A stretch of DNA of 64,000 bases from PVC group bacterium (lineage in GTDB: Bacteria > Verrucomicrobiota > Kiritimatiellia > CAIKKV01 > CAITUY01). The stretch spans positions 1 to 64,000 of the forward strand of contig CAMBRF010000014.1 of NCBI GenBank assembly GCA_945870225.1, given 5' to 3'. Below the pieces are notes generated by a model. That model saw only the letters and a program-made list of their open reading frames with translations. It did not search any database and was not told the origin of the DNA. Each line of letters starts with the position of its first letter. The stretch's first letter is position 1. The position numbers and the translations under genes are program-made. Of the stretch, positions 18,211-45,912 are shown piece by piece.

Positions 18211-18927
18211 ATGAAACGATCTGAAATCAATGCCATCATGCGAGACGGGTTGGCCTTCCTGAAGCGGATGAATTTTCTGATGCCTCCCTTTGCGCATTGG
18301 ACTCCCGCCGAATGGAAACGCAAGGGGCCGGAGTGCCGCGATATCATCGATCAGCAGCTTGGATGGGACATCACGGATTTCGGGTCAGGCGACTTTGATC
18401 GGGTGGGCCTGTTCCTTTTCACCATTCGGAACGGGGGCGCCGCCGGCCTGAAGGGTAAGGACGGCAAGAACTACGCCGAGAAAATCATGATCGTGCGGGA
18501 GAACCAGCTTACCCCGACCCATTTCCATTTCAAAAAAATGGAAGACATCATCAACCGGGGCGGCGGCAATCTGGTCGTCCGGCTGTGGAATTCGACGGCG
18601 CGAGGGCAACTGGCGAAATCACCCGTGACAGTCGCCATGGACGGTGTGCAGGTGCAGGTCAAGGCTGGCGGGACCATTACCCTCAAGCCCGGCCAGTCGG
18701 TTTGCCTGCCGCCGAACCTTTACCACCGGTTCTGGGGGCAGAAGGGGAAGGGCAAGGTTCTGGTGGGCGAAGTGAGCCGCGTCAACGATGACCATGTGGA
18801 CAATCGTTTCTTCGATAAGGTGGGCAGGTTTCCGAAGATCGAGGAGGACGTGCCGCCCCTGCGTCTGCTCTCCTGTGACTACCCGGCCTACTGCATGCCG
18901 AACATCTGTTCCTTAAGGTCCAGATAG
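18211..18927 (+). CDS. D-lyxose ketol-isomerase-like cupin sugar isomerase
   Basis: PTHFHFKKMEDIINRGGGNLVVRLWN metal-binding cupin pattern, SVCLPPNLYHRFWG. Confidence 0.83.
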   Translation: MKRSEINAIMRDGLAFLKRMNFLMPPFAHWTPAEWKRKGPECRDIIDQQLGWDITDFGSGDFDRVGLFLFTIRNGGAAGLKGKDGKNYAEKIMIVRENQLTPTHFHFKKMEDIINRGGGNLVVRLWNSTARGQLAKSPVTVAMDGVQVQVKAGGTITLKPGQSVCLPPNLYHRFWGQKGKGKVLVGEVSRVNDDHVDNRFFDKVGRFPKIEEDVPPLRLLSCDYPAYCMPNICSLRSR

Positions 18928-20009
18928 TAGAGATAGTCCTCCGGCTTGACGTTCGGCGGGCAGCGGTGATCGCAGAACGGAATGAACCCGCCGCGTTCCA
19001 CGAGCGGAACCAGCGTCTTCATATAAGCCTTGATGGCGGCGGGCCCTTTACCCATCTCGATCTTGTCGAATCCACCCATAATGCGCAGATCCTTGCCGTA
19101 TTCCTTCAGTAGTTCAGCCGGGTGTGCGCAGCCGTTGACCTCAAAGGGGAAGAGGCAGTTGCAGCCGCCTTCCATCATGAGAGGCAGGATGGGTCGGACA
19201 TCTCCGTCGCAATCGATCCACCACAGGTTGATGCCGGCCGCCTTGAGGCGCTTGGAGATCCGCTTGTAGCGCGGCATCACGACCTCACGGAAGAAGTCGA
19301 CGGAAACGATCGGCCCATTCTTGAAGCAGATATCCTCCCAGCCCGAGGCGTAGTCAAAGTCAATATGGGGGAGGAGCTGGTCCAGCGCATGCTCCACCAT
19401 TTGACACGAGGTTTCCACCATGTCCTCCACCATGTCGGGGTAGTCGTAGCAGGCGTAGGCCAGTCCCTCGAAGGTCAGCATGTCGCGGACCTTGCCGATC
19501 ATCGACCCGCAACTGATGCCCAGCGGGTAGTCCCGGGTGGGGGGATGCTGCCGGATGATCTTCGCCACATCATACCGGCGGGCGGGATCGTCCAAGCGGA
19601 ATCGCTCCTCCTTGCACCGTTTCCAGTCGTCGGGGGTGACGATGCTGGCCCGCAGGTAGTGGGGGATGGTGTCATGGCCATCCCGGGGCACCTCGGCCAG
19701 CAGACCATCCCCGTTCATCAGGATCTTCGTGGTCGCGGTTTCCTCGATCACCGTGTTCGGGAACGACGGACTCATCCAGACATTCGTGTAAACGGCAGGC
19801 TGGCGGTCGAAGTTAAAGAAGAGGTCGGCGTCCGCGTTGTTGGTGATGCCGTTCTTAACGAAGAGATCCCACTCCTTGAAGTTCTCCTCCCAATAGCCGA
19901 ATTCCATGTTAAAGCACCGGTCGACCGGTTTGTACTGCATCTGGTTGTTAAACCGTTCGCGATCGGTCAGGGTGCCTTTCCACTTCGGGCGGCAAGGGGT
20001 GATGGCCAT
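18888..20009 (-). CDS. Uroporphyrinogen decarboxylase-like family protein (methyltransferase/UroD superfamily)
   Basis: IDCDGDVRPILPLMMEGGCNCLFPFEV, GGFIPFCDHRCPPNV; lacks the HemE N-terminal RQAGRY motif. Confidence 0.82.
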   Translation of the reverse strand: MAITPCRPKWKGTLTDRERFNNQMQYKPVDRCFNMEFGYWEENFKEWDLFVKNGITNNADADLFFNFDRQPAVYTNVWMSPSFPNTVIEETATTKILMNGDGLLAEVPRDGHDTIPHYLRASIVTPDDWKRCKEERFRLDDPARRYDVAKIIRQHPPTRDYPLGISCGSMIGKVRDMLTFEGLAYACYDYPDMVEDMVETSCQMVEHALDQLLPHIDFDYASGWEDICFKNGPIVSVDFFREVVMPRYKRISKRLKAAGINLWWIDCDGDVRPILPLMMEGGCNCLFPFEVNGCAHPAELLKEYGKDLRIMGGFDKIEMGKGPAAIKAYMKTLVPLVERGGFIPFCDHRCPPNVKPEDYLYYLDLKEQMFGMQ

Positions 20010-21365: not shown

Positions 21366-21442
21366 AATCCTAATCGTAATCTTAATCGTAATCGTAATGT
21401 GTTGCCCAAGAATGGATTATGATTAAGATTACGATTAGGATT
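21366..21442. repeat. Large inverted repeat built from TAATCG/TAATCT units
   Basis: AATCCTAATCGTAATCTTAATC (21366-21387) and its exact reverse complement GATTAAGATTACGATTAGGATT (21421-21442). Confidence 0.9.
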
Positions 21443-21593
21443 ATGAGTAAAATTCAAAAATCACAGTTTCTCAAACGTGTCAAAATTATCATCAAATGCG
21501 GGATTGTACTGGCTCCAATTTGAATTTCTTGGCCGGTATTGACGTTTCGGGGGTTGGTGATTACCTTCTGCTTCTCGATCTAAGGAACATACC

Positions 21594-24010: not shown

Positions 24011-25717
24011 ATGAAACTTGGACTTTCAACCGATTATGGTTCGCCCCATCACTGGGAACGCCTGATTGACTTCGCGGAACGGCATGATGTGGATCGCCTG
24101 GTGTTCTGGGGCGACTACTCGTTTGCCGGCTTTACGCCGCCCTGCCTCTTTTCCCCCTGGCCGGAGGCATTAACTGCGGAACAGAGCCTCGCCCGTCAGC
24201 ACGTTCGGGACCGCATGTCCGATGCGGCGGGGCGGACGGCTGGCTCGGGTCGTGAGTTCTGGTATGTCTTTCAAGTGCTGATGCTCCCGCCGATTGAACA
24301 ATCAAAAAAGGTGTGGCCCGAATTGTTCAACGCGCACGGAGAGCCGGACATGTCACACCCGCTGATCGGGAAGCTTATCAGGCACCAGCTTGAGGATCTC
24401 CTGACCGTGGCACCGAACTTGCATGGCCTTGAACTGTGGATTATGGAATGTGCCAGCATTGTCCTGTCGAATCTCCGCCACCAGTCGATGACCGTGGATC
24501 AGATGGTTGAACGTGTCATCGACATCGTTGACGGGTTCTGCCGTGAGAAGGGCTTGCGGCTGGCGGTGGACCTGCACACGGCTGGCGGACATAAGCCGAT
24601 GCTCGATGCGATTTTGACGGCAGCCGCGCGGCGGCCGCACATGCTGGTTAGCGGCGACAATGTCATTGGCGATTTTCATTTGAAGTTGCCGTTTAACGAG
24701 CATCTTCGGAAGGCGGCGCGCACGAATCCGGTACAGGTTCATTTTGATCTCAACGGTGAATACTGGGGGCGGAATTTCACGCCGACCGTGGCCTTGACTC
24801 AGTATACGGAGCATATTGCCGCCGCCAGGGCTCTTGGAGCCGAGTATCTCGATGGTCGAATTTCCACAGGGCACGACTGCGGAGCGCCGCATGACAATGT
24901 CCTGCCGTCGCGGCGGAAGTTCTATCCTGCGCTTCAGAACTTGCAACCCGGCACCCCGCTGCCGCCGAATATTCAAGTTTGTTGTTTTGATACATTGGGC
25001 GGTTGTAACGCGGAGTATTTTCTTCGCCATGCCCGTGACCCGGAAGTTCAGACTGGCCCCGTGGTTCGGGAATTTCTCGCTACTGAATTCGGGCCGGATG
25101 TGGGGGCGCTGGCGTGGCTGCTGGAAAATCTGGAACCGGTCAATGGTCGGATCTTCTTTACCGACAAGAATTATGCCGGTGCTCAGTCCATGCTTACCCA
25201 TGTCTGGCTTGAGTCGTTTTGGGCAATGGATGTTCACTTTACAGCCCCGGCGGGCACTCCTTTGTCGGCGGTGGAAGCCGCGACAACACGTGATCAATCC
25301 GCTGGCCGGGCGGCGTTTTCCGGTTGGCCGGTGCCGGTGGGGCATCGTGTAGCCGGACCGCAGGCCATCCTCGCCGAGAAACAACTCGCGGTGGCGGAGA
25401 CGCAGGCATTTCTTGAACTCGCGCGGCAGGCGACGGCTCATTTCCCTGTGGCCCAACGTGAGTTCGTTGTGCGCCAGTTCGTTGATCTGGTCAGGCGTGC
25501 GCGTACGGCGGCGGTACTGCAGGAGGCCATGGTTCACTTCTTCCACCTCAAGCGCGGCGTGACCAATGGCGCGATTCCCGATCGGAAGCGGCTGGCTGAA
25601 CTTGTCTCGGAATTACAAGTCCTGTCCGCTGAGTGGCTCCAACACTATCCGGATGACCGGTGGAAAATGGCGGTGGTTCTCCAAGCCTGGCTTAAAACAA
25701 TGCAGCAAGTATCATGA
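24011..25717 (+). CDS. Unassigned probable TIM-barrel glycoside hydrolase-like protein, copy 1
   Basis: Intact 568 aa ORF; motifs LHGLELWIMECASIVLS, LRLAVDLHTAGGHK, VQVHFDLNGEYWGRNFTP shared with its paralogue at 28314. Confidence 0.75.
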   Translation: MKLGLSTDYGSPHHWERLIDFAERHDVDRLVFWGDYSFAGFTPPCLFSPWPEALTAEQSLARQHVRDRMSDAAGRTAGSGREFWYVFQVLMLPPIEQSKKVWPELFNAHGEPDMSHPLIGKLIRHQLEDLLTVAPNLHGLELWIMECASIVLSNLRHQSMTVDQMVERVIDIVDGFCREKGLRLAVDLHTAGGHKPMLDAILTAAARRPHMLVSGDNVIGDFHLKLPFNEHLRKAARTNPVQVHFDLNGEYWGRNFTPTVALTQYTEHIAAARALGAEYLDGRISTGHDCGAPHDNVLPSRRKFYPALQNLQPGTPLPPNIQVCCFDTLGGCNAEYFLRHARDPEVQTGPVVREFLATEFGPDVGALAWLLENLEPVNGRIFFTDKNYAGAQSMLTHVWLESFWAMDVHFTAPAGTPLSAVEAATTRDQSAGRAAFSGWPVPVGHRVAGPQAILAEKQLAVAETQAFLELARQATAHFPVAQREFVVRQFVDLVRRARTAAVLQEAMVHFFHLKRGVTNGAIPDRKRLAELVSELQVLSAEWLQHYPDDRWKMAVVLQAWLKTMQQVS

Positions 25718-25730
25718 TGGCTCGCGCCTC

Positions 25731-25817
25731 CTGCCGCCTTGCGCGGCAGGGGCGAGAGATTGTGGGGAAAGCGAAATTTTCCCCACAATCTGTTCACCCG
25801 CGACACAAGGTCGCGGG
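25731..25817 (+). repeat. Three-hairpin intergenic element, copy B
   Basis: H1 CTGCCGC-CTTGC-GCGGCAG (25731-25749); H2 AGATTGTGGGGAAA/TTTCCCCACAATCT (25757-25770/25778-25791); H3 CCCGCGAC-ACAAG-GTCGCGGG (25797-25817). Confidence 0.9.
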
Positions 25818-25852
25818 GGTTCCTTACGATTGAGGAATAGCTGGAATTATTT

Positions 25853-28291
25853 ATGAGTTCAAACGATATGCAGGTTACGGATGCCGAGCGGGCTGATGTG
25901 ACACGCTGGATCACCGCAAAGATCAAGGGTGAGCAGGAGAGGCCCGAGTATGCGGCAGAATTGGCGGTCATAGCCTCCCAATGGGGGCAGCCGCGCCTTA
26001 ATACTCATCCTTACGGTCATAAGTTAACTGTTTCCGGCCGCACCATGTCGGACGGGCTTTACTGTCATGCCAATTGCCGAATGGCGGTATTGTTGCCGGG
26101 GCGGGCCCGGCGGTTGACCGCCTTGTGCGGGGTGGAGAGCAATCGGGAGACCAGCCCCGGTGGCGGGAATGTGGTGTTTGCCGTCAGTGCCGGCGGGAAG
26201 GAGTATTTCCGCTCTGCCGTACAGCACGAGGGAATGCCGGTCGTTACGGTTGACGTGGCGCTTGATGGCGAGAATCTTATTGTTCTCGAAACCGGCGATG
26301 GCGGATTGGGTATTTCCTACTGCCAGGGTGTGTGGGGGGAAGCCGTGGTCACCCTCGAAGACGGTTCCTCTTTCAGACTAGGTAGTCTTACTCTCCGCTC
26401 CGCTTTGCCCCGGGGTGCTTATGAGGCCGGGGACCCTTTTTCATTCCAATACGGAGGCCAGCCTTCCGGTGCGTTGCTGAAAAACTGGGGCCGCGAGGTC
26501 ACCACCAGCAGGATCGATGACCGGCGGACGCGTCATCTGCTGAAATGGGTTGATCCTGCGACCCGATTGACCGTGCGATGCGAAGGTGTGCAGTATCACG
26601 ACTTTCCTGTTGTGGAGTGGACAACCTACCTCCGCAATGACGGGTCCCGCGATACGCCTCTTATTGAATCGCTGCAGGGACTCGACATGCGATTCGAGCG
26701 TGATGGCGATGGAGACGAGTTTGTTCTGCATCACCATTGCGGGTCACCGAACTCGCCGGCGGACTATGAACCGCGACAGCAGCGGTTGGCGGCGGAATCA
26801 ACTTTCACGCTTGCCGCAGGCGGCGGGCGCGGGAGCAATGCCAACTGGCCTTATTTCAATGTGGCGCGGGGGACGGACGGCGTAATGATCGTGGTTGGCT
26901 GGCCGGGACAGTGGGCGACGACGTTTACCAGGGATCACGACCGCGGGCTGGCTATTACGGCGGGCCAGGAACTGACCCGGTTTGTTCTGCATCCCGGTGA
27001 AGAGGTTCGGACCCCCTTGATGGCGCTGCTGTTCTGGCGGGGCGACCGCATCCGGTCGCATAATTTATGGCGCCGGTGGATGCTGGCCCACAATGTGCCG
27101 CGTGACAACGAAGGCCAGTTGCCCGCCACGCAACTGCTCGCCTGTGCCACCGTTCTATTTCCGAAATTGATCGGGACCCAGGAGGAGGAAATCGCCTGCA
27201 TCAACCGCTATCGCGAGGAACAGATTCCCCTGCAATGGTGGTGGATTGATGCCGGATGGTTTCACAATGAAGGGTGGTGGCCGTATGTGCAGGACTGGGA
27301 TGTGGATCGCAAGCGATATCCGGGAGGTATACGTGCCGTCAGCGACTATGTCCATGCCGCCGGCATGAAGATGGTGCTCTGGTTTGAACCCGAGCGTGTG
27401 TTTGAACATAACTGGCTGGCCACCCAGCATCCGGAATGGAATCTGGGGACGGGGCAGTTCCGGTTGTTGGATCTGGGCAACAAGGAAGCCTGGGACTGGC
27501 TCGTTAATCACGTCGACCGCGTGTTAACGGAGGAGGGGATTGATCTCTATCGTCAGGATTTCAATACGGATCCGCTTGGCTACTGGCGGGAAAATGATGC
27601 GCCGGATCGGCAGGGTATGACGGAGATGCGCTACATCCAAGGGTATCTGGCCTTCTGGGATGAGTTGCGCCGCCGTCATCCCGGGATGTTGATCGACTCC
27701 TGTGCGGCCGGTGGCCGACGCAACGATCTGGAGACCATGCGACGGGCCATTCCGTTGTGGCGCACGGATTACAACTATGAGGAGCCGGTGGGGACCCATG
27801 CCATTACTCATGGCATCTCGATGTGGCTTCCCTACCATGGCGGCGGGGTAAATCAAACGGACACCTATCGATTCCGCAGTTCGATGACGCCGTGGTTCAA
27901 TTGCTTGTTCGATGTGCGGCGCCGCGATGTCGATTATGACCTCATCCGTCGCCAGATCAGTCAGTGGCGGGAAGTGGCTGACTTTTTCCTGGCCGATTTT
28001 TATCCCCTCCTGCCCTACAGTCGCGGCGCAGATGACTGGATGGCGTGGCAGTTCCATAGTCCCGAAAAGGGTGCCGGTATGATCCAGGCCTTTCGTCATG
28101 CGGAAAGTGTCTTTATCCATGCTGTGATTCCCTTGAAGGGGTTGGACCCGGTCGTTCGATATGAAGTGAAGGATCTGGAGACCGGACAAATCCAGATTGC
28201 TGCGGGTTCGGACTTATTGAAAAAGGGATTGCCTGTAATCATTCAGGAACAACCTGGATCTGTGTTGATGTCGTACCGCAAGATTGAATGA
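25853..28291 (+). CDS. GH36-type alpha-galactosidase with N-terminal NPCBM-like domain, copy 1
   Basis: WWWIDAGWF, KMVLWFEPERV, IDLYRQDFNTDP, DSCAAGGRRNDLETMRRAIPLWRTDYN; N-terminal NPCBM-like segment. Confidence 0.87.
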   Translation: MSSNDMQVTDAERADVTRWITAKIKGEQERPEYAAELAVIASQWGQPRLNTHPYGHKLTVSGRTMSDGLYCHANCRMAVLLPGRARRLTALCGVESNRETSPGGGNVVFAVSAGGKEYFRSAVQHEGMPVVTVDVALDGENLIVLETGDGGLGISYCQGVWGEAVVTLEDGSSFRLGSLTLRSALPRGAYEAGDPFSFQYGGQPSGALLKNWGREVTTSRIDDRRTRHLLKWVDPATRLTVRCEGVQYHDFPVVEWTTYLRNDGSRDTPLIESLQGLDMRFERDGDGDEFVLHHHCGSPNSPADYEPRQQRLAAESTFTLAAGGGRGSNANWPYFNVARGTDGVMIVVGWPGQWATTFTRDHDRGLAITAGQELTRFVLHPGEEVRTPLMALLFWRGDRIRSHNLWRRWMLAHNVPRDNEGQLPATQLLACATVLFPKLIGTQEEEIACINRYREEQIPLQWWWIDAGWFHNEGWWPYVQDWDVDRKRYPGGIRAVSDYVHAAGMKMVLWFEPERVFEHNWLATQHPEWNLGTGQFRLLDLGNKEAWDWLVNHVDRVLTEEGIDLYRQDFNTDPLGYWRENDAPDRQGMTEMRYIQGYLAFWDELRRRHPGMLIDSCAAGGRRNDLETMRRAIPLWRTDYNYEEPVGTHAITHGISMWLPYHGGGVNQTDTYRFRSSMTPWFNCLFDVRRRDVDYDLIRRQISQWREVADFFLADFYPLLPYSRGADDWMAWQFHSPEKGAGMIQAFRHAESVFIHAVIPLKGLDPVVRYEVKDLETGQIQIAAGSDLLKKGLPVIIQEQPGSVLMSYRKIE

Positions 28292-28313
28292 AAAAGATAG
28301 GATTGAGACCATT

Positions 28314-30014
28314 ATGAAGCTGGGACTTTCAAGTGATTTTGGATCGCCCCATCACTGGGAGCGGATGGTGGATTTTGCCACGCGGAATAAAGTGGACCGT
28401 CTGGTGTATTGGGGTAACTACTCCGTGCCGGGCGCCACAACGCCCTGTTTATTCACTCCGTGGCCGGCCGCGGTCAGCGCCGAACAGCGCGTGCTACGGG
28501 AGGGAGTGCGGGATTCCATGGCCTATGCCGCACAGCTCACGCACCGTGCCGGCAAGGAGTTTTGGTATGTCTATCAAGTGTTGATGCTTCCTCCGATCGA
28601 GCAGTCGAAGCAGGCCTGGCCGACGTTGTTCAATGAGCACGGTGAACCGGATATGGCGCATCCGCTGGTCGAGGAAATCATCCATTACCAGCTCAATGAA
28701 GCCCTGCGCATTGCTCCGCACCTGCACGGCCTTGAATTGTGGATCTGTGAAGGTGCCAATATCGTGTTGTCAGACCTCAAGCAACAAACGTTGACCTTGA
28801 ATCAGATCATCGAACGGATTATGGGAATTGTCGACGACTTTTGCCGGACAAAGGGGCTCCGTCTGGCGGTGGACCTGCACACGTCCGGCGGGCACAAGGC
28901 GACGGTCGATGCCCTGCTGGCGTCCGCTGCGCGCCGTTCGCACGTGCTGGTCAGCGGCGACAACGTCATCGGCGATTTTCAATTGCATTCGCCCTTTAAT
29001 TCGCATCTCCAGAACGCCGTGCGGACCAATCCGGTGCAGGTGCATTTCGATCTTAATGGGGAATACTGGGGACGTAATTTTACACCCACTGTTGCGTTGG
29101 CTCAGTACACCCGGCATCTGGCTGCCGCCCGTGCGATTCAGGCTGAATATGTCGATGGACGCATTGCCACCATTCATAACATAAACTCGCGGCACGACCA
29201 CGTTCTGCCATCACGGCGGAAGTTCTATCCTGCGCTTCAGAACTTGCAACCCGGCGCTCCTCTTCCGTCGAATATAGACGTCTGTTGTTTCGACACACTA
29301 GGCGGCTTTAACGCCGAGTATTTCCTCCGCCATGCCCGTGACCCGGAAGTTCAAACAGGGCCTGTGGTCCGGGAATTTCTCGCTACTGAATTCGGGCCGG
29401 ATGTGGGCGCGCTGGCGTGGCTGCTGGAAAATCTGGAACCGGTCAATGGTCGGATATTCTTTACCGACAAGAATTATAGCGGAGCCCAGTCCTTGCTCCC
29501 CTACGTGTGGCTGACGGGTTTTTGGGCTCTGGATGTTCATTCTACAGCTCCTGCCGGGACCCCGTTGACGGCGGTGGAAGCCGCCACCACCAGTGGCGAA
29601 GTAGGACCGGCTGCATTTGCGGGTTGGCCGGTGCCGATTGATCATCGTGTGGCTGGACCGCAGGCCATTCTCGCCGAGAAACAACTCGCGGTAGCGGAGA
29701 CGCAGGCGTTTCTTGAACTCGCGCGGCAGGCGACGGCTCATTTCACTGTAGCCCAACGTGAGTTCGTTGTGCGCCAGTTTGTGGATCTGGTCAGGCGTGC
29801 GCGTACGGCGGCGGTGCTGCAGGAGGCCATGGTTCATTACTTCCACCTCAAACGAGGCGTGACTAACGGCGCGATTCCCGACAGGAAGCGGCTGGCTGTA
29901 CTTATGCCGGAATTGCTGGCTTTGTCGGACGAGTGGCTCCAGTACTATCCCGACGACCGGTGGAGCATGTCGGGGTGGCTGAAGGAGTGGCACAAGACAA
30001 TGCAGCAAGTGTAA
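28314..30014 (+). CDS. Unassigned probable TIM-barrel glycoside hydrolase-like protein, copy 2
   Basis: Paralogue of 24011-25717; the start at 28314 matches the MKLGLS start of copy 1. Confidence 0.75.
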   Translation: MKLGLSSDFGSPHHWERMVDFATRNKVDRLVYWGNYSVPGATTPCLFTPWPAAVSAEQRVLREGVRDSMAYAAQLTHRAGKEFWYVYQVLMLPPIEQSKQAWPTLFNEHGEPDMAHPLVEEIIHYQLNEALRIAPHLHGLELWICEGANIVLSDLKQQTLTLNQIIERIMGIVDDFCRTKGLRLAVDLHTSGGHKATVDALLASAARRSHVLVSGDNVIGDFQLHSPFNSHLQNAVRTNPVQVHFDLNGEYWGRNFTPTVALAQYTRHLAAARAIQAEYVDGRIATIHNINSRHDHVLPSRRKFYPALQNLQPGAPLPSNIDVCCFDTLGGFNAEYFLRHARDPEVQTGPVVREFLATEFGPDVGALAWLLENLEPVNGRIFFTDKNYSGAQSLLPYVWLTGFWALDVHSTAPAGTPLTAVEAATTSGEVGPAAFAGWPVPIDHRVAGPQAILAEKQLAVAETQAFLELARQATAHFTVAQREFVVRQFVDLVRRARTAAVLQEAMVHYFHLKRGVTNGAIPDRKRLAVLMPELLALSDEWLQYYPDDRWSMSGWLKEWHKTMQQV

Positions 30015-30030
30015 TAATGGCTCGCGCCTC

Positions 30031-30117
30031 CTGCCGCCTTGCGCGGCAGGGGCGAGAGATTGTGGGGAAAGTGAGATTGTTCCCACAATCTGTTCACCCG
30101 CGACACAAGGTCGCGGG
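30031..30117 (+). repeat. Three-hairpin intergenic element, copy C
   Basis: H1 and H3 identical to copy B; H2 retained with an altered apex (GATTGTGGG...CCCACAATC). Confidence 0.9.
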
Positions 30118-30151
30118 GGTTTTATACAATTGAGGACTAGCAGGGATATTT

Positions 30152-32659
30152 ATGAATTCAAACGATATGCAGATTACGGATGCCGAGCGGGCCGAGGTGA
30201 CCCGGTGGGTTACGGCTAAGTTCCAGGGCAAGCAGGAGCGGGCCGGGTATGCGGCGGAATTGGCGGTCATTTCCTCCCAATGGCGGCCGCCGCGCCTGAA
30301 TACGCATCCTTATGGTCACAAGCTGAAGGTTTCCGGTCGGACCATGTCGGACGGGCTCTATTGTCATGCAAATTGCCGGATAGGGGTGTTGCTGCCGGGG
30401 CGTGCCCGGCGTTTGACCGCCCTGTGCGGCGTGGAGAGCAATCGCGAGACCAGCCCCGGCGGCGGGAATGTGGTCTTTGCCGTCAGTGCCGGCGGGAAGG
30501 AGTATTTCCGGTCTGCCGTGCAACGCGAGGGGATGCCGGTCGTCACGATTGACGTGGCGCTGGATGGCCAGGAACTCATTATCCTCGAAACCAGTGATGG
30601 CGGATTGGGTATTCCCTACTGTCAGGGTGTATGGGGCGAAGCCGTGGTCACCCTTGAGGACGGTTCCTCTTTCAGGCTGGGAAGTCTTCCTGTCAGGCCC
30701 GGTTTACCGCGGGGTGCCCATGAGGCCGGGGCTCCTTTTTCATTCCAATACGGAGGCCAGTCGTCCGGCACGTTGCTGAAAGACTGGGCCAGCGAGGTCA
30801 CCACCAGCAGGATCGATGACCGACGTACACGGCACCTGATGAAATGGGTTGATCCCGTGACCCGCTTGAGCGTGCGGTGCGAGGGGATTGAATACCATGA
30901 CTTTCCGGTTGTGGAATGGACAACCTACCTCCGCAATGACGGGCCCCGTGATACGCCGCTTATCGAATCGCTGCAGGGCCTCGACACTCTTTTTGAGCGT
31001 GATGGAGGGAAGGAAGAGTTTGTCCTGCACCATCACCGCGGTTCGCCCAATTCACCGGCAGATTTCGAGCCGATGCAACGCCAGTTGGAGACGGGCTCGA
31101 CGTTCACCCTGGCCGCAGGCGGCGGGCGGGGCAGCAATGCCAACTGGCCCTATTTCAATCTGGTCATGCCGGGTGACGGAATCATGATCGCGGTCGGTTG
31201 GCCCGGTCAGTGGGCCACATCGTTTGCGAGGGACGATGCCAACGGGTTACGTATTGCGGCGGGTCAGGAATTGACCCGTTTTGTCCTGCATCCCGGCGAA
31301 GAGGTACGGACGCCGTTGATGGCCCTATTGTTCTGGAAAGGGGATCGGGTTCGGTCGCACAACCTGTGGCGGCGTTGGATGAAGGCGCACAATGTGCCGC
31401 GCACGGCAGATGGCGCCTTGCCCAAGCCGCAACTTCTCAACTGCGCCTGCTTTAATTATCTGAATCTGGTCAGCAGTCAGCAGGAAGAAATCCAGTACAT
31501 GGACCGGTTCCTCGACGAAAAGATTCCGTTGAACTGGTGGTGGCTGGATGCCGGGTGGTACGTCAACGACGGCACCTGGACGACGGTCGGGACCTGGGAG
31601 GCGGATCCCAAGCGTTTCCCCGGCGGCATCCGCGCCGTCACGGATCACGCTCACAAGCGCGGACTCAAGTTCATGCTCTGGTTCGAGCCGGAACGGGTTT
31701 CCGCCGGTAGTTGGCTGTTTGAAAAACATCCCGAGTGGCTTCTCGGGAAGGATCGGGTCCGCTTGCTCGATCTGGGCAACCCGGCGGCACGGCAGTGGGT
31801 AACGGATCACATTGATAAGTGTATTGCCGAGTTCGGGATCGATCTGTACCGTCAGGACTTCAACATTGACCCGCTCGATTTGTGGCGCGCGGATGATAAG
31901 CCGGATCGGCAGGGAATGCTTGAAATGGGGCATGTGACCGGATACCTGGCCTTTTGGGATGAGTTGCGGCGCCGGCATCCGGGCCTGCTGATTGACTCCT
32001 GTGCCTCGGGTGGGCGGCGCAATGATCTTGAGACCATGCGGCGCGCCATCCCGTTGTGGCGGACTGATTACGACTTCGGTGATCCTGTCGGCACCCATTC
32101 CATCACACACGGAATCTCCAACTGGCTGCCGTATCATGGCGGCGGGGTGGGGCATACGGATGCCTACCGGTTTTTCAGCACCATGACCTCATGGTTGAAC
32201 TGTGCCTTCCTCGTGGGTGAGATGAAAAAGGGGCCGGACGGGGTGCCGAATATGTACGTTCCGGGTTCGATTGCGAACTCGCCGGTTGATTTCGGGGCGT
32301 TGCGACAGCGGACGGCTCAGTGGTTGGAGGTGGCCGAGTTCTTTCTGGCCGACTTCTACCCGATTCTGCCTTACAGCCGGAATCCGGCCGATTGGACCGG
32401 TTGGCAGTTCCATGACCCCGAGAAGGGCGCCGGAATGGTTCAGTTGTTCCGCCATGCGGCTTCCGTGTTCGATCATGCCGGCATGTTGTTGCAGGGTCTT
32501 GATGCGGCGGCGCATTACACGGTCCGGAACCTGGAGACGGGTGAACAGGTCGAACGGTCGGGTTCGCAATTGATGGAACAAGGGTTGCCGGTGGCGATAG
32601 AGCAGAAACCGGGCGCGGCTCTTTTTGCTTACGCCTGTCATGGCCCTTGTCAGAAATAA
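30152..32659 (+). CDS. GH36-type alpha-galactosidase with N-terminal NPCBM-like domain, copy 2
   Basis: WWWLDAGWY, FMLWFEPERV, IDLYRQDFNIDP, DSCASGGRRNDLETMRRAIPLWRTDYDF. Confidence 0.87.
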   Translation: MNSNDMQITDAERAEVTRWVTAKFQGKQERAGYAAELAVISSQWRPPRLNTHPYGHKLKVSGRTMSDGLYCHANCRIGVLLPGRARRLTALCGVESNRETSPGGGNVVFAVSAGGKEYFRSAVQREGMPVVTIDVALDGQELIILETSDGGLGIPYCQGVWGEAVVTLEDGSSFRLGSLPVRPGLPRGAHEAGAPFSFQYGGQSSGTLLKDWASEVTTSRIDDRRTRHLMKWVDPVTRLSVRCEGIEYHDFPVVEWTTYLRNDGPRDTPLIESLQGLDTLFERDGGKEEFVLHHHRGSPNSPADFEPMQRQLETGSTFTLAAGGGRGSNANWPYFNLVMPGDGIMIAVGWPGQWATSFARDDANGLRIAAGQELTRFVLHPGEEVRTPLMALLFWKGDRVRSHNLWRRWMKAHNVPRTADGALPKPQLLNCACFNYLNLVSSQQEEIQYMDRFLDEKIPLNWWWLDAGWYVNDGTWTTVGTWEADPKRFPGGIRAVTDHAHKRGLKFMLWFEPERVSAGSWLFEKHPEWLLGKDRVRLLDLGNPAARQWVTDHIDKCIAEFGIDLYRQDFNIDPLDLWRADDKPDRQGMLEMGHVTGYLAFWDELRRRHPGLLIDSCASGGRRNDLETMRRAIPLWRTDYDFGDPVGTHSITHGISNWLPYHGGGVGHTDAYRFFSTMTSWLNCAFLVGEMKKGPDGVPNMYVPGSIANSPVDFGALRQRTAQWLEVAEFFLADFYPILPYSRNPADWTGWQFHDPEKGAGMVQLFRHAASVFDHAGMLLQGLDAAAHYTVRNLETGEQVERSGSQLMEQGLPVAIEQKPGAALFAYACHGPCQK

Positions 32660-33770: not shown

Positions 33771-35273
33771 ATGATCAATGCCTATGACCTGACTCGTCGG
33801 ATTTATGATGTGGATCTCTGGTGGGAGCCGCCCCGTCACCGTTTCCGGCGTTGGAGCTCGTACGATCCTGCCGGTAACACGGAACACGATTGTGACAAGT
33901 ACGTGAGTGTGTCCACGGACGGGAAGATCGGCGTTGTGGCCGATACGCAGGAATCAGGTTCCATTGTTCGCATCTGGGCGGCGGGCACCCATCCCAACCG
34001 GCCGATGCGGATGTATCAGGGCGGGAGCAGTGAGCCTTTCCTGGATGCGATGCTGGAGTCAATGTTTGACGGTTCGTTTGACAATCGTAAGAACCTCCGG
34101 ACCGGTGTCGACTTTTCCTTCACGGAGGTGAGGCATTGGCCTTTTGTCAAACCGCTGATGGGGGATTTCCGGCGGGCTTATGTATGTCGCGTTCCCATTC
34201 CGTTCCGAAACGGCTTGCGCATCGATGTGGACCGGCTGCCGGACATTAACGCCGGGTTTTTCTATCATGTGGACTGCATGCTGGCGGACGATCCGCAGGA
34301 GGTGCAGCCTTTTGACGGTCGCTTCAGTTATCGTGATTTCACAGTGCCCCATGCTCAACATATTCATGCGGACCCCTTGAAGTTCTATGGCGACGAAATG
34401 TTGGGGGCACGCCGAGTGACGGCGCAGGGGCATGGTGAGCGGGTGTCGGTATTCCTGGCTGCTGGTGCGGGAATGGTGCGCCGCCTGGTGTTGAAGCTGA
34501 CCGGTGTGGCCCGGGAAGACCTGCATGATCTCCGGCTGACGATTGCCTACGGGAACCGGGCGCCCTCGTTTGATGCGCCGGTAAGTTTGCTTTTCGGGGC
34601 GGCGTTCGAACTACATGCGTTCCGATCCCGCGCTTTGGGTTATGAGGATGGCGTTTTTCAATTCCAGCTTCCGATCCCGTTCCGCGACGGTGTTGAGATT
34701 GCGCTGTACTCGGTTTCCAAACGACCGTTCGGGGTCGAGAGTGAAGTCTATGTTTTGGACCGTGAGCCGCCCGCAGGGGCCCTGCTGCTGCACAGCTATT
34801 CGGCGTTCGACGCCGGGCCTACGCCGTCTCCCTTTGTGTTTGCCGATGTTCAGGCGGCGCAGGGGCGGTATGTCGGCATGGCCTTTTCCTGCAAGCCGTA
34901 CCAGCAGGAGGACAACGAGATCATGGTGGTCGACGGTGAAGTGGTTGCCCGCGGGACCGGTCGCGAGGATTACTTCAACATGTCATGGGGCTTCAAGGAG
35001 TACTGTGAGCCGGACCACGGCTGTCCGGTGCAAAGCGGGGAATACCCCTGGCAGGATTTGCAGTCCGGCCATGGCTACTACAGTGCCTATCGTCTGCATT
35101 TTCTAGAGAGCGTTCCCTTCCGGAAGAGTTTCAAGGCGTTCTTTGAGAAGGATTACGACCCGCACAAAGTCGGACACGGTTGGGCCAGCACGGCATTCCT
35201 GTATCTGGATCGTCCTCAACCGGCTCATGGCATTTCAGCCGACTGGCGTCGCTGGGCGGAGAGCCCTTCCTGA
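33771..35273 (+). CDS. DUF2961 (GH172-like) protein 1
   Basis: Gly-rich sugar-site motifs SIVRIWAAG, VARGTGREDYFNMSWGF. Confidence 0.8.
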   Translation: MINAYDLTRRIYDVDLWWEPPRHRFRRWSSYDPAGNTEHDCDKYVSVSTDGKIGVVADTQESGSIVRIWAAGTHPNRPMRMYQGGSSEPFLDAMLESMFDGSFDNRKNLRTGVDFSFTEVRHWPFVKPLMGDFRRAYVCRVPIPFRNGLRIDVDRLPDINAGFFYHVDCMLADDPQEVQPFDGRFSYRDFTVPHAQHIHADPLKFYGDEMLGARRVTAQGHGERVSVFLAAGAGMVRRLVLKLTGVAREDLHDLRLTIAYGNRAPSFDAPVSLLFGAAFELHAFRSRALGYEDGVFQFQLPIPFRDGVEIALYSVSKRPFGVESEVYVLDREPPAGALLLHSYSAFDAGPTPSPFVFADVQAAQGRYVGMAFSCKPYQQEDNEIMVVDGEVVARGTGREDYFNMSWGFKEYCEPDHGCPVQSGEYPWQDLQSGHGYYSAYRLHFLESVPFRKSFKAFFEKDYDPHKVGHGWASTAFLYLDRPQPAHGISADWRRWAESPS

Positions 35274-36084: not shown

Positions 36085-37596
36085 ATGCAAGGTATTCAGC
36101 CGCTATTCATGACCGAAAAAAATGTGCGATCGGGCCGCGTCAGTAAATTCTACTATGGTGACCGCAACTATAAACCCAATGAGTGGAATGTGATTGCCGA
36201 TCTGGAGGGGCCGGGGTCGATCAATCATATCTGGGTTACGTTTGCCAGTGATGCCCTGCTAGGGCGTCGTGTCCTCCTGCGTTGTTTCTGGGACGACGAA
36301 ACGGAACCAAGCGTGGAAGCGCCGATCAGTGACTTTTTTGGCGTTCCGTTTGGCCTGTTCGGAACGCAATTCGGCAAGATGAGCACGCCCTGGCTTGTGA
36401 TGGCGCCGGAGAATGGTTTCAACTGCTATTTCACCATGCCGTTTGCGCGCCGTGCGAGGATCGAGATTATGCCCGCCGAGGAGGTCAGCCTTATTGGGTT
36501 CTATATTCAGATCGACTATTGTCAGTTCGAGAAGGAACTGCCCCGTGAATGGGCCGACTTCCGTTTTCATGCGCAGTACCGGTTTGAGAACCCGTGCGAA
36601 AAGTACGGGCGGAATTATCTCTTTCTGGATGCAACCGGGAGGGGCATGTTGGCGGGTGTAACCTTCGGGATTGAGATGCACTATCCACAACCTGATCCGT
36701 GGTACCATGGCGGCGGTGACACGATGCTCATTGACGGCGAGTCCCGTCCGGCGGTGTTGCACGGCATCGGGGCGGAGGATTTTATCAGTCACTCACATGG
36801 TGTGCGGGAGTTTCACTCCAACTACGTCGGGACACCGTATGAAGAAAAAGAGGCGGACGGACGGTTGAAGCGTTTGGGGCTGTATCGTTTCTTCATCCAG
36901 GATCCGGTCTTCTTTTCCCGCTCGATTCGCGCTACGCTGGGGGCACTGGGCAATGCCTATTCCAGCGTGGTCTACTGGTATCAGACTGAGCCCCATCGGC
37001 CGTTCTTCCGGGTCCCCTCAGTCGAAGCGCGCATGCCCGGTGCGGAGGCCCGGTATGGACGGTATGACTTGGAAAGTCAGCCGGCTGAGGAATGGCAGAT
37101 TCTGGCGCCGTTCCCGTGTAATCAGAATGAGCCTTTCGAGACGGTGCGACCGTTTGAACAGCTTGAGACGGGTGCCGAGAGCTATCGCTTTCATCCCTCG
37201 GGTTATGCGGGGATCTGCCGGGCTTCGCTGCCGGGTGGAGATAACATTGATGTGAAGTGGAAACCCCAGTTCGCATACCATCATTTTATTGACTTTAATG
37301 TTGTGGCACGACCAGCGATAGGATGTATCTGCCTGGAGACCGAAGTGGTCGGGTACGCCCTGCGCTATGTGGATTCAGCGTCGGATCGAGAGGCGGTTTT
37401 CAGCTTCGCATTCGACGATGAGGCTGTGGTATGGGTAAACGAAGCGCGGTGCTTTAGCGGCAGCCATCCTCATGGGTTGCGTTCGGTTAACTTCACCGCC
37501 CGGTTGCGCAAGGGTCGGAATCGGATACTCGTGAAATTATCCAACCATGACAATGACAACTGGCGCTTCTGGGGCTTCTGTCTGCGCATGGCGTAG
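36085..37596 (+). CDS. DUF2961 (GH172-like) protein 2
   Basis: DLEGPGSINHIWVTF, DDETEPSVEAPISDFFGVPFG, GIGAEDFISHSHG. Confidence 0.85.
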   Translation: MQGIQPLFMTEKNVRSGRVSKFYYGDRNYKPNEWNVIADLEGPGSINHIWVTFASDALLGRRVLLRCFWDDETEPSVEAPISDFFGVPFGLFGTQFGKMSTPWLVMAPENGFNCYFTMPFARRARIEIMPAEEVSLIGFYIQIDYCQFEKELPREWADFRFHAQYRFENPCEKYGRNYLFLDATGRGMLAGVTFGIEMHYPQPDPWYHGGGDTMLIDGESRPAVLHGIGAEDFISHSHGVREFHSNYVGTPYEEKEADGRLKRLGLYRFFIQDPVFFSRSIRATLGALGNAYSSVVYWYQTEPHRPFFRVPSVEARMPGAEARYGRYDLESQPAEEWQILAPFPCNQNEPFETVRPFEQLETGAESYRFHPSGYAGICRASLPGGDNIDVKWKPQFAYHHFIDFNVVARPAIGCICLETEVVGYALRYVDSASDREAVFSFAFDDEAVVWVNEARCFSGSHPHGLRSVNFTARLRKGRNRILVKLSNHDNDNWRFWGFCLRMA

Positions 37597-37649: not shown

Positions 37650-38708
37650 ATGATGAACTCAAAAGAGCGAATGATGGCCGCAATCAACCGGCAGCCGATT
37701 GATCGTATTCCGACGGATATCTGGGCGACCCCGGGTGTTTGGACAAAGATGGGCAAATATTTTGGCGAGAAGGCCGATATTGCTGCGATACTGCACCTTG
37801 ATGGGTTTGCCAGTGTTGCGCCGGAATACATTGGCCCGCCCCTGCCTCAGATGCCTCCGGATGAGGCCGTCAATTTCTGGGGCATTCGCACGAAACGTGT
37901 TCCGCATGAAGGGGGTTACTATGATGAGCAGTCCCTTAATCCCCTGGCGAGTGCCCAGACTCTGGACGATCTGAAAGCTTATCCCTGGCCGGATGCCGGG
38001 TGGTTTGACTACTCGGGAATGCGGGCCAAGGCCGAGGAGGGTGGCAAGACCCGGGCCGTGCAGTGCGGTTATATGGCGCCCTTCTACTATCACAACCTGA
38101 TGCGGGGCCTTGAGCAATCATTGATTGATCCGCTTCTTGATCCCGAATTCACCCACTATCTGATCGGGCGCATTTCTGACTTCTTCTATGATTATCACCG
38201 GCGGATCTTTGAAGCGTGCAAAGGGTTCATCGATGTTGCCCAGGTGACCGATGATCTTGGCAGCCAGACCGGCCCCCTCATCAGTTTGGATTTGTATAAG
38301 GAGTTTTATGCTCCGCACCATAAGCGTTTCATCGATCTCTGCCACGAGTTCGGGATCAAGGTGTTCCATCATGACGATGGTAGTTGCCGTCAATTCCTGC
38401 CGCTATTGGTCGAGATGGGGATCGATATCCTGAATCCGATTCAATGGACCTGCCCGGGTATGGACATGGTCGAACTGAAAGCGGAGTTCGGAAGCCGGAT
38501 CTGTTTCCATGGTGCGGTTGACAATCAACGCATCCTGCCGTTCGGAACGCCTGAGGAGGTTCGCGCCGAGGTCCGTCATTGCATCGACTCGCTGGCCAGC
38601 AATGGCACGGGGTACATCCTTGCCCCCTGCCACAATTTGCAAGTGAACACCCCCGTGGAGAACATCATCGCCATGTACGATGAAGCCTGGAAATACGGGA
38701 AGATGTGA
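37650..38708 (+). CDS. Uroporphyrinogen decarboxylase-like family protein 2
   Basis: KERMMAAINRQPIDRIPTDIW, FHHDDGSCRQFLPLLVEMGIDILNPIQWTC, YILAPCHNLQVNTPVENI. Confidence 0.87.
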   Translation: MMNSKERMMAAINRQPIDRIPTDIWATPGVWTKMGKYFGEKADIAAILHLDGFASVAPEYIGPPLPQMPPDEAVNFWGIRTKRVPHEGGYYDEQSLNPLASAQTLDDLKAYPWPDAGWFDYSGMRAKAEEGGKTRAVQCGYMAPFYYHNLMRGLEQSLIDPLLDPEFTHYLIGRISDFFYDYHRRIFEACKGFIDVAQVTDDLGSQTGPLISLDLYKEFYAPHHKRFIDLCHEFGIKVFHHDDGSCRQFLPLLVEMGIDILNPIQWTCPGMDMVELKAEFGSRICFHGAVDNQRILPFGTPEEVRAEVRHCIDSLASNGTGYILAPCHNLQVNTPVENIIAMYDEAWKYGKM

Positions 38709-45872: not shown

Positions 45873-45912
45873 GCGGTCCTGCCCGGCCGGGCAGGACCGC
45901 TCTCTTTGTTTG
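45873..45912 (+). terminator. Intrinsic terminator downstream of glnN
   Basis: Perfect 28-nt palindrome GCGGTCCTGCCCGGCCGGGCAGGACCGC (45873-45900) followed by TCTCTTTGTTTG. Confidence 0.85.

Follow-up and report, generated by a model that had tools for sequence, protein, structure and literature searches.

A tandem pair of two-gene glycan units in the genome of an uncultured PVC group bacterium appears to have a composite history, in which an old tandem duplication was followed later by partial homogenisation of the middle of the units through exchange between the two copies (probability of about 0.78). The window analysed is the whole stretch of 64,000 nucleotides from contig 14 of a 2.7 Mb assembly, which comprises 54 contigs and is 84% complete. 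Unit 1 (24011–28291) and unit 2 (28314–32659) each contain a gene A, a hairpin element and a gene B, all on the forward strand. Gene A (24011–25717 in unit 1, 568 residues; 28314–30014 in unit 2, 566 residues counted from the ATG at 28314) encodes a predicted (β/α)8 barrel with a helical C-terminal part, its nearest solved fold being that of GH67. Gene B (25853–28291, 812 residues; 30152–32659, 835 residues) encodes an NPCBM domain followed by a GH36 (melibiase) domain. The hairpin elements lie at 25718–25821 and 30018–30121. The tandem two-gene units described in an earlier reading by a model, made from the DNA letters only (hereafter the sequence-only reading), are thus both present, with an amino-acid identity between units of 77% for gene A and 72% for gene B.

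This identity is unevenly distributed, as had been claimed. Synonymous divergence was assessed only at codons encoding the same residue in both units, by a best-fit segment search with 300 permutations and by a two-state hidden Markov model. It is lowest over 24913–26722 of unit 1 (corresponding to approximately 29216–31021 in unit 2), where 131 of 455 same-residue codons differ (29%), as compared with 275 of 500 (55%) outside. The log-likelihood gain of this segment is 34.0, against a permutation maximum of 11.3, and identical borders were obtained with the Markov model at three switch rates. Synonymous divergence is thus far from uniform along the cassette. The 3′ border of this core lies near residue 290 of gene B, between the NPCBM domain and the catalytic barrel. 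The two flanks, at 24011–24912 on the 5′ side and at 26723–28291 on the 3′ side (the catalytic half of gene B), are both anciently diverged. The number of synonymous substitutions per synonymous site (dS) between the units is 1.38 in the gene A flank, falls to 0.53 in the gene A core and 0.49 in the gene B core, and rises to 1.86 in the catalytic part of gene B. In windows of the codon alignment, it exceeds 1.1 in most of both flanks and remains between 0.2 and 0.6 in most of the middle. Reading frames are intact throughout and the core differences are mostly synonymous. The sequence-only reading had considered the core substitutions to be merely scattered; they are in fact not few, nucleotide identity being mostly 0.75–0.95, with a trough at 25180–25320. 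The likeness that it noted in the C-terminal part of gene A is reflected in the low dS of the core, except that the final 60 codons, directly before the hairpin, are relatively diverged (amino-acid identity 0.67).

Since amino-acid identity taken alone is higher in the core, the profile might also be explained without any exchange, through stronger constraint on the core and weaker or diversifying selection on the flanks. This explanation is very improbable. The ratio of nonsynonymous to synonymous divergence (omega) takes nearly the same value everywhere: 0.162 for the flank of gene A, 0.152 for the core part of each gene and 0.146 for the GH36 catalytic half. Nonsynonymous and synonymous divergence thus scale together, dS falling threefold while omega stays constant at 0.15, which indicates that core and flanks differ in age and not in constraint. 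The selection proposed earlier to diversify the flanks has left no sign, omega being 0.15–0.16 in flanks and core alike, and the divergence of the flanks does not reduce to a difference in constraint at equal dS, since dS is unequal and omega equal. A mutational cold spot does not account for the core either. The proportion of synonymous differences to L003, a gene A homologue from a Verrucomicrobiia genome, is flat and saturated (0.65–0.73) in each of the three gene A parts, whichever unit is compared, while that between the units drops from 0.67 to 0.38. Gene B offers a view of family-wide constraint. Over ten outgroups, its catalytic half is better conserved (mean identity 0.50) than its NPCBM half (0.38), whereas the two units show the opposite profile, with 0.85 in the NPCBM half and 0.65 in the catalytic half. 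Over residues ~526–600, the likeness between the units does not exceed that of either unit to the outgroups. A constraint-only origin of the core was rejected on the grounds of the equal omega and of the flat synonymous distance to the outgroup.

The relationships of gene A to outside homologues also change along its length, which constraint alone does not predict. The L003 locus has one gene A with no adjoining gene B, and a GH36 homologue, 49% identical, is found about 10 kb from it on the same contig. The 5′ flank of unit 2 shares 84% amino-acid identity with L003. In the tree of residues 1–155, unit 2 groups with L003 (support 99/95) and the grouping of the two units is rejected by the approximately unbiased (AU) test (p-AU 0.016). 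The part between residues 155 and 302 looks transitional, with a support of 98/94 for unit 2 plus L003 and a p-AU of 0.059 for the two units together. Over residues 302–567, in contrast, the two units group together (98/99) and unit 2 plus L003 is rejected (p-AU 0.044). A three-sequence test applied to unit 1, unit 2 and L003 places the breakpoint at 24904, with a maximal descent of 123 that none of 20,000 permutations reached; this position is only nine bases away from the border obtained with the two units alone. The switch of relationship is observed in gene A only. The outgroups of gene B are too distant, so that the units are sisters in all its parts and depth alone changes: the tree path between them lengthens from 0.17 in the core to 0.70 in the catalytic part, as compared with 1.96 and 1.19, respectively, to the nearest outgroups.

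Three observations thus give good support to an exchange between the copies, either by gene conversion or by two unequal crossovers: dS drops, gene A changes its relationship along its length, and the conservation profile of gene B is inverted. The local gene conversion put forward in the sequence-only reading, or an equivalent exchange, is supported by the same observations. The cassette made of gene A, hairpin element and gene B would have been duplicated in tandem long ago. One or a few exchanges would then have replaced about 1.8 kb of one copy with the sequence of the other, this stretch including the last 45% of gene A, the intergenic element and the NPCBM half of the GH36 gene. The flanks would have retained their older divergence, and core and flanks would since have evolved under equal purifying constraint. 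The same product would result from gene conversion and from two unequal crossovers in succession; we infer that the exchange took place within the genome, by conversion rather than by crossovers. With a core dS of about 0.5, the event is old. Counts of derived sites in the core (47 on unit 1, 31 on unit 2) were considered as a guide to its direction and dropped, since these sites postdate the exchange.

The main rival to an exchange of the core is a replacement of the flanks. In that case, the duplication would be fairly young, the core dS of about 0.5 giving its true age, and diverged homologues from other genomes would have overwritten both the 5′ part and the 3′ part of one unit. Transfer of glycan loci from one genome to another is common, the 5′ flank of unit 2 is close to a gene from another genome, as described above for L003, and the distance of both cores to L003 resembles that of the unit 1 flank. 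Such a history nevertheless looks unlikely, since it requires two separate replacements sparing the middle instead of one core exchange, and no notable difference in base composition separates flanks from core. In addition, the catalytic halves of gene B are still mutual closest relatives (support 98–100), so that only a near relative not yet sampled could have been the donor.

Several points weigh against the exchange of the core as depicted here. Its dS of about 0.5 is in itself considerable and somewhat uneven, which makes a single clean tract an idealisation, although the trough at 25180–25320 does not reach significance when tested within the core (42 of 500 permutations). The three-sequence test loses strength at third positions alone (94 of 20,000 permutations). 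The AU p-values are moderate, and the tree segments were picked after the profile had been seen. As regards outside homologues, L003 is the closest one for gene A among 58 near relatives and 388 genomes of the phylum, which otherwise gave only 43% matches, and no homologue of gene B above about 51% was found in the collections searched. A mixing of reads from the two copies or from two strains could also be suspected, given the fragmentation and incompleteness of the assembly. Such an artefact is extremely improbable, because a collapse predicts identical stretches, whereas the core copies are 5–25% apart, with the intact frames and mostly synonymous differences already mentioned.

An exchange of this kind can be compared with the conversion between tufA and tufB in Salmonella (PMC5485169), where two chromosomal homologues likewise share a contiguous tract and differ in the remainder. 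The cassette differs from that case in several respects: its copies are in tandem and far more diverged, the event is an old one, and the tract extends over two genes with the spacer between them. The locus is a clear but ordinary example of recombination between duplicates, a known process.

The hairpin element located in the middle of the tract is a REPIN-like dispersed repeat. REPINs are inverted doublets of repetitive extragenic palindromic (REP) sequences that form hairpins (PMC3116915); they are accompanied by REP-associated tyrosine transposases (RAYTs). The stretch 25718–25821 folds into three stems (z −7.2), with stem-loops at approximately 25730–25750, 25757–25791 and 25797–25818. 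Its outer palindromes share a common loop, CCTTGYG, on opposite strands, with unlike stems showing paired changes, and are separated by a variable spacer. Full copies are found on contigs 3, 13 and 17, and shorter copies devoid of the middle stem on contigs 1, 8, 9, 12 and 27. A covariance model (R1) retrieved 15 full-length matches at E below 1e-10 in the same genome. They include a third, variant copy in the window, outside the cassette (2337–2438, forward strand, 60.7 bits, E 2.9e-12). Many matches were also obtained in related genera (G007, G024, G002, G034 and G014); in G007 alone there are 66, some of which correspond to both strands of one place, and the family spans several genera of the class. 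The element resembles REPINs by its two inverted palindromes, its dispersed copies and the presence of Y1 transposase genes in the genome. It differs from them by the third, central hairpin of its long form, by the lack of a visible GTAG tag and by the outer inverted ends TAATGATGG/CCATCATTA present in at least two copies. These copies, at L126 and L027:640–860, look like miniature transposons bounded by TAATGATGG and CCATCATTA, the right end of which has been lost in the cassette copies.

The two cassette elements are identical at 100 of 104 sites. They differ at only 4 of 104 sites, as compared with 9 of the remaining 30 aligned intergenic bases (Fisher p 0.0002), and a copy from another family of the same order is still 92% identical to the unit 1 element. 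The likeness between units thus reflects the conservation of the repeat itself and cannot be counted as evidence of exchange. The gene A stop codon sits in the left end of the element in both units, which implies that the element either predates the duplication or came along with the exchange. Most likely, it entered the cassette before the duplication and was kept for reasons of its own. A search of Rfam 15 revealed no known RNA in the window, the element itself giving chance matches only (ribosomal S15 leader, E 0.054, far below cut-off), so that nothing points to a known riboswitch or leader at this place. A role as transcription terminator was considered and set aside, as no T-run follows the third stem.

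Three genes with a Y1 transposase domain are present in the genome. One of them (L043:784–1788; G000:C7:94270 onwards) is directly followed by tandem CCTGCCGGACAAGCCGGCAGG hairpins. This REP type forms one half of the composite elements at 2337–2438 of the window and on contigs 5 and 11; it is not part of the cassette copy. A separate frame of 447 residues (L044:684–2027, G000:C7 ~26183–27526) combines a shikimate kinase (Pfam SKI, E 4e-37) with a Y1 transposase domain (E 7e-7). Palindromes of the GTAGACGGGGCG.../...GGCTCGTCTAC type occur within this frame, as KVDGASRPVSS repeats, and also in tandem downstream; the junction resembles a REPIN insertion by which two genes were fused.

The sequence-only reading had placed the centre of the conversion on this palindromic element. 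Only the geometry agrees: the tract midpoint, near 25817, falls at the element. By our own arithmetic, a 1.8 kb tract placed at random in a 4.3 kb unit would be centred no more than 100 bases from the element about 8% of the time, and there is no second tandem locus for comparison. Within the core, synonymous differences do not become more frequent further from the element (Spearman rho −0.02, p 0.63, the same on the left and on the right), and the codons closest to it on the left, 8 of 16 of which differ synonymously, are not the most alike. However, the dS of 0.5 accumulated since the event would blur any such gradient. In the Salmonella tuf genes, conversion start points are uniform along the gene (PMC5485169). 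A Y1 protein of the RAYT type, or a hairpin-cleaving nuclease, might still be imagined to break DNA at the element, with repair from the neighbouring copy converting both sides, and the REPIN-like nature of the element, together with the three Y1 genes and the related hairpins after one of them, would fit this scheme. Given the flat profile on either side and the chance level of the midpoint, it is improbable that the element acted as a trigger. The broader proposal that a REPIN-like hairpin between tandem genes serves as a recombination start, driving repeated homogenisation of the NPCBM halves while the catalytic halves diverge, deserves equally little credence.

Regarding the products, gene A matches no family model in Pfam or NCBIfam and no PDB entry by sequence. 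An AlphaFold2 model of the unit 2 homologue, built with 14 homologues, reached a predicted local distance difference test score (pLDDT) of 84.8 and a predicted template modelling score (pTM) of 0.88. A Foldseek search with this model gave a GH67 alpha-glucuronidase as closest fold (E 4e-11, 12% identity, template modelling score 0.56), with GH20 and GH84 close behind. The probable TIM barrel announced earlier is thus upheld, and the product is predicted from this model to be a GH67/GH20/GH84-like barrel protein. It is not assigned to GH67, because of the low identity, the template modelling score of only 0.56 and the proximity of the two other families. The earlier description of gene B as a GH36 protein with an NPCBM-like N-terminal half agrees with its Pfam matches (Melibiase, E 2e-28; NPCBM, E 6e-19). 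Like GH36 alpha-galactosidases with an N-terminal NPCBM, gene B has both domains and both motifs, YRQDFN in the two copies and SCAAGGRRND (unit 1) or SCASGGRRND (unit 2), which we take to hold the nucleophile and the acid/base. It departs from that family in that its nearest NCBIfam model, a beta-L-arabinopyranosidase, scores far below cut-off.

Further glycan-related genes lie nearby. Two DUF2961 proteins (33771–35273 and 36085–37596, E 2e-34 and 1e-57), separated by less than 1 kb, are preceded by a DUF6786 protein; together they belong to the same glycan locus as the cassette. URO-D family proteins are encoded on both sides of this locus (18891–20009, reverse strand; 37650–38708, forward strand; Pfam E 3e-8 and 1e-27), and are possibly methyltransferases rather than haem enzymes. 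A long inverted repeat with AATCGT/ATTACG-like units (21366–21454) lies upstream of a pectate-lyase-like gene, and a perfect 28-base palindrome without spacer, GCGGTCCTGCCCGG/CCGGGCAGGACCGC, is found at 45873–45900.

The element family is a REPIN-like repeat of this bacterial class, with no match in Rfam 15. The cassette itself is a clean mosaic duplicate in an uncultured bacterium, the two ends and the middle of which are of different ages. Phylogenies or transfers of function based on whole proteins would be misleading at this locus. After the exchange, the two enzymes resemble each other closely in their N-terminal modules but not in their catalytic halves, which amounts to a natural experiment in enzyme diversification.

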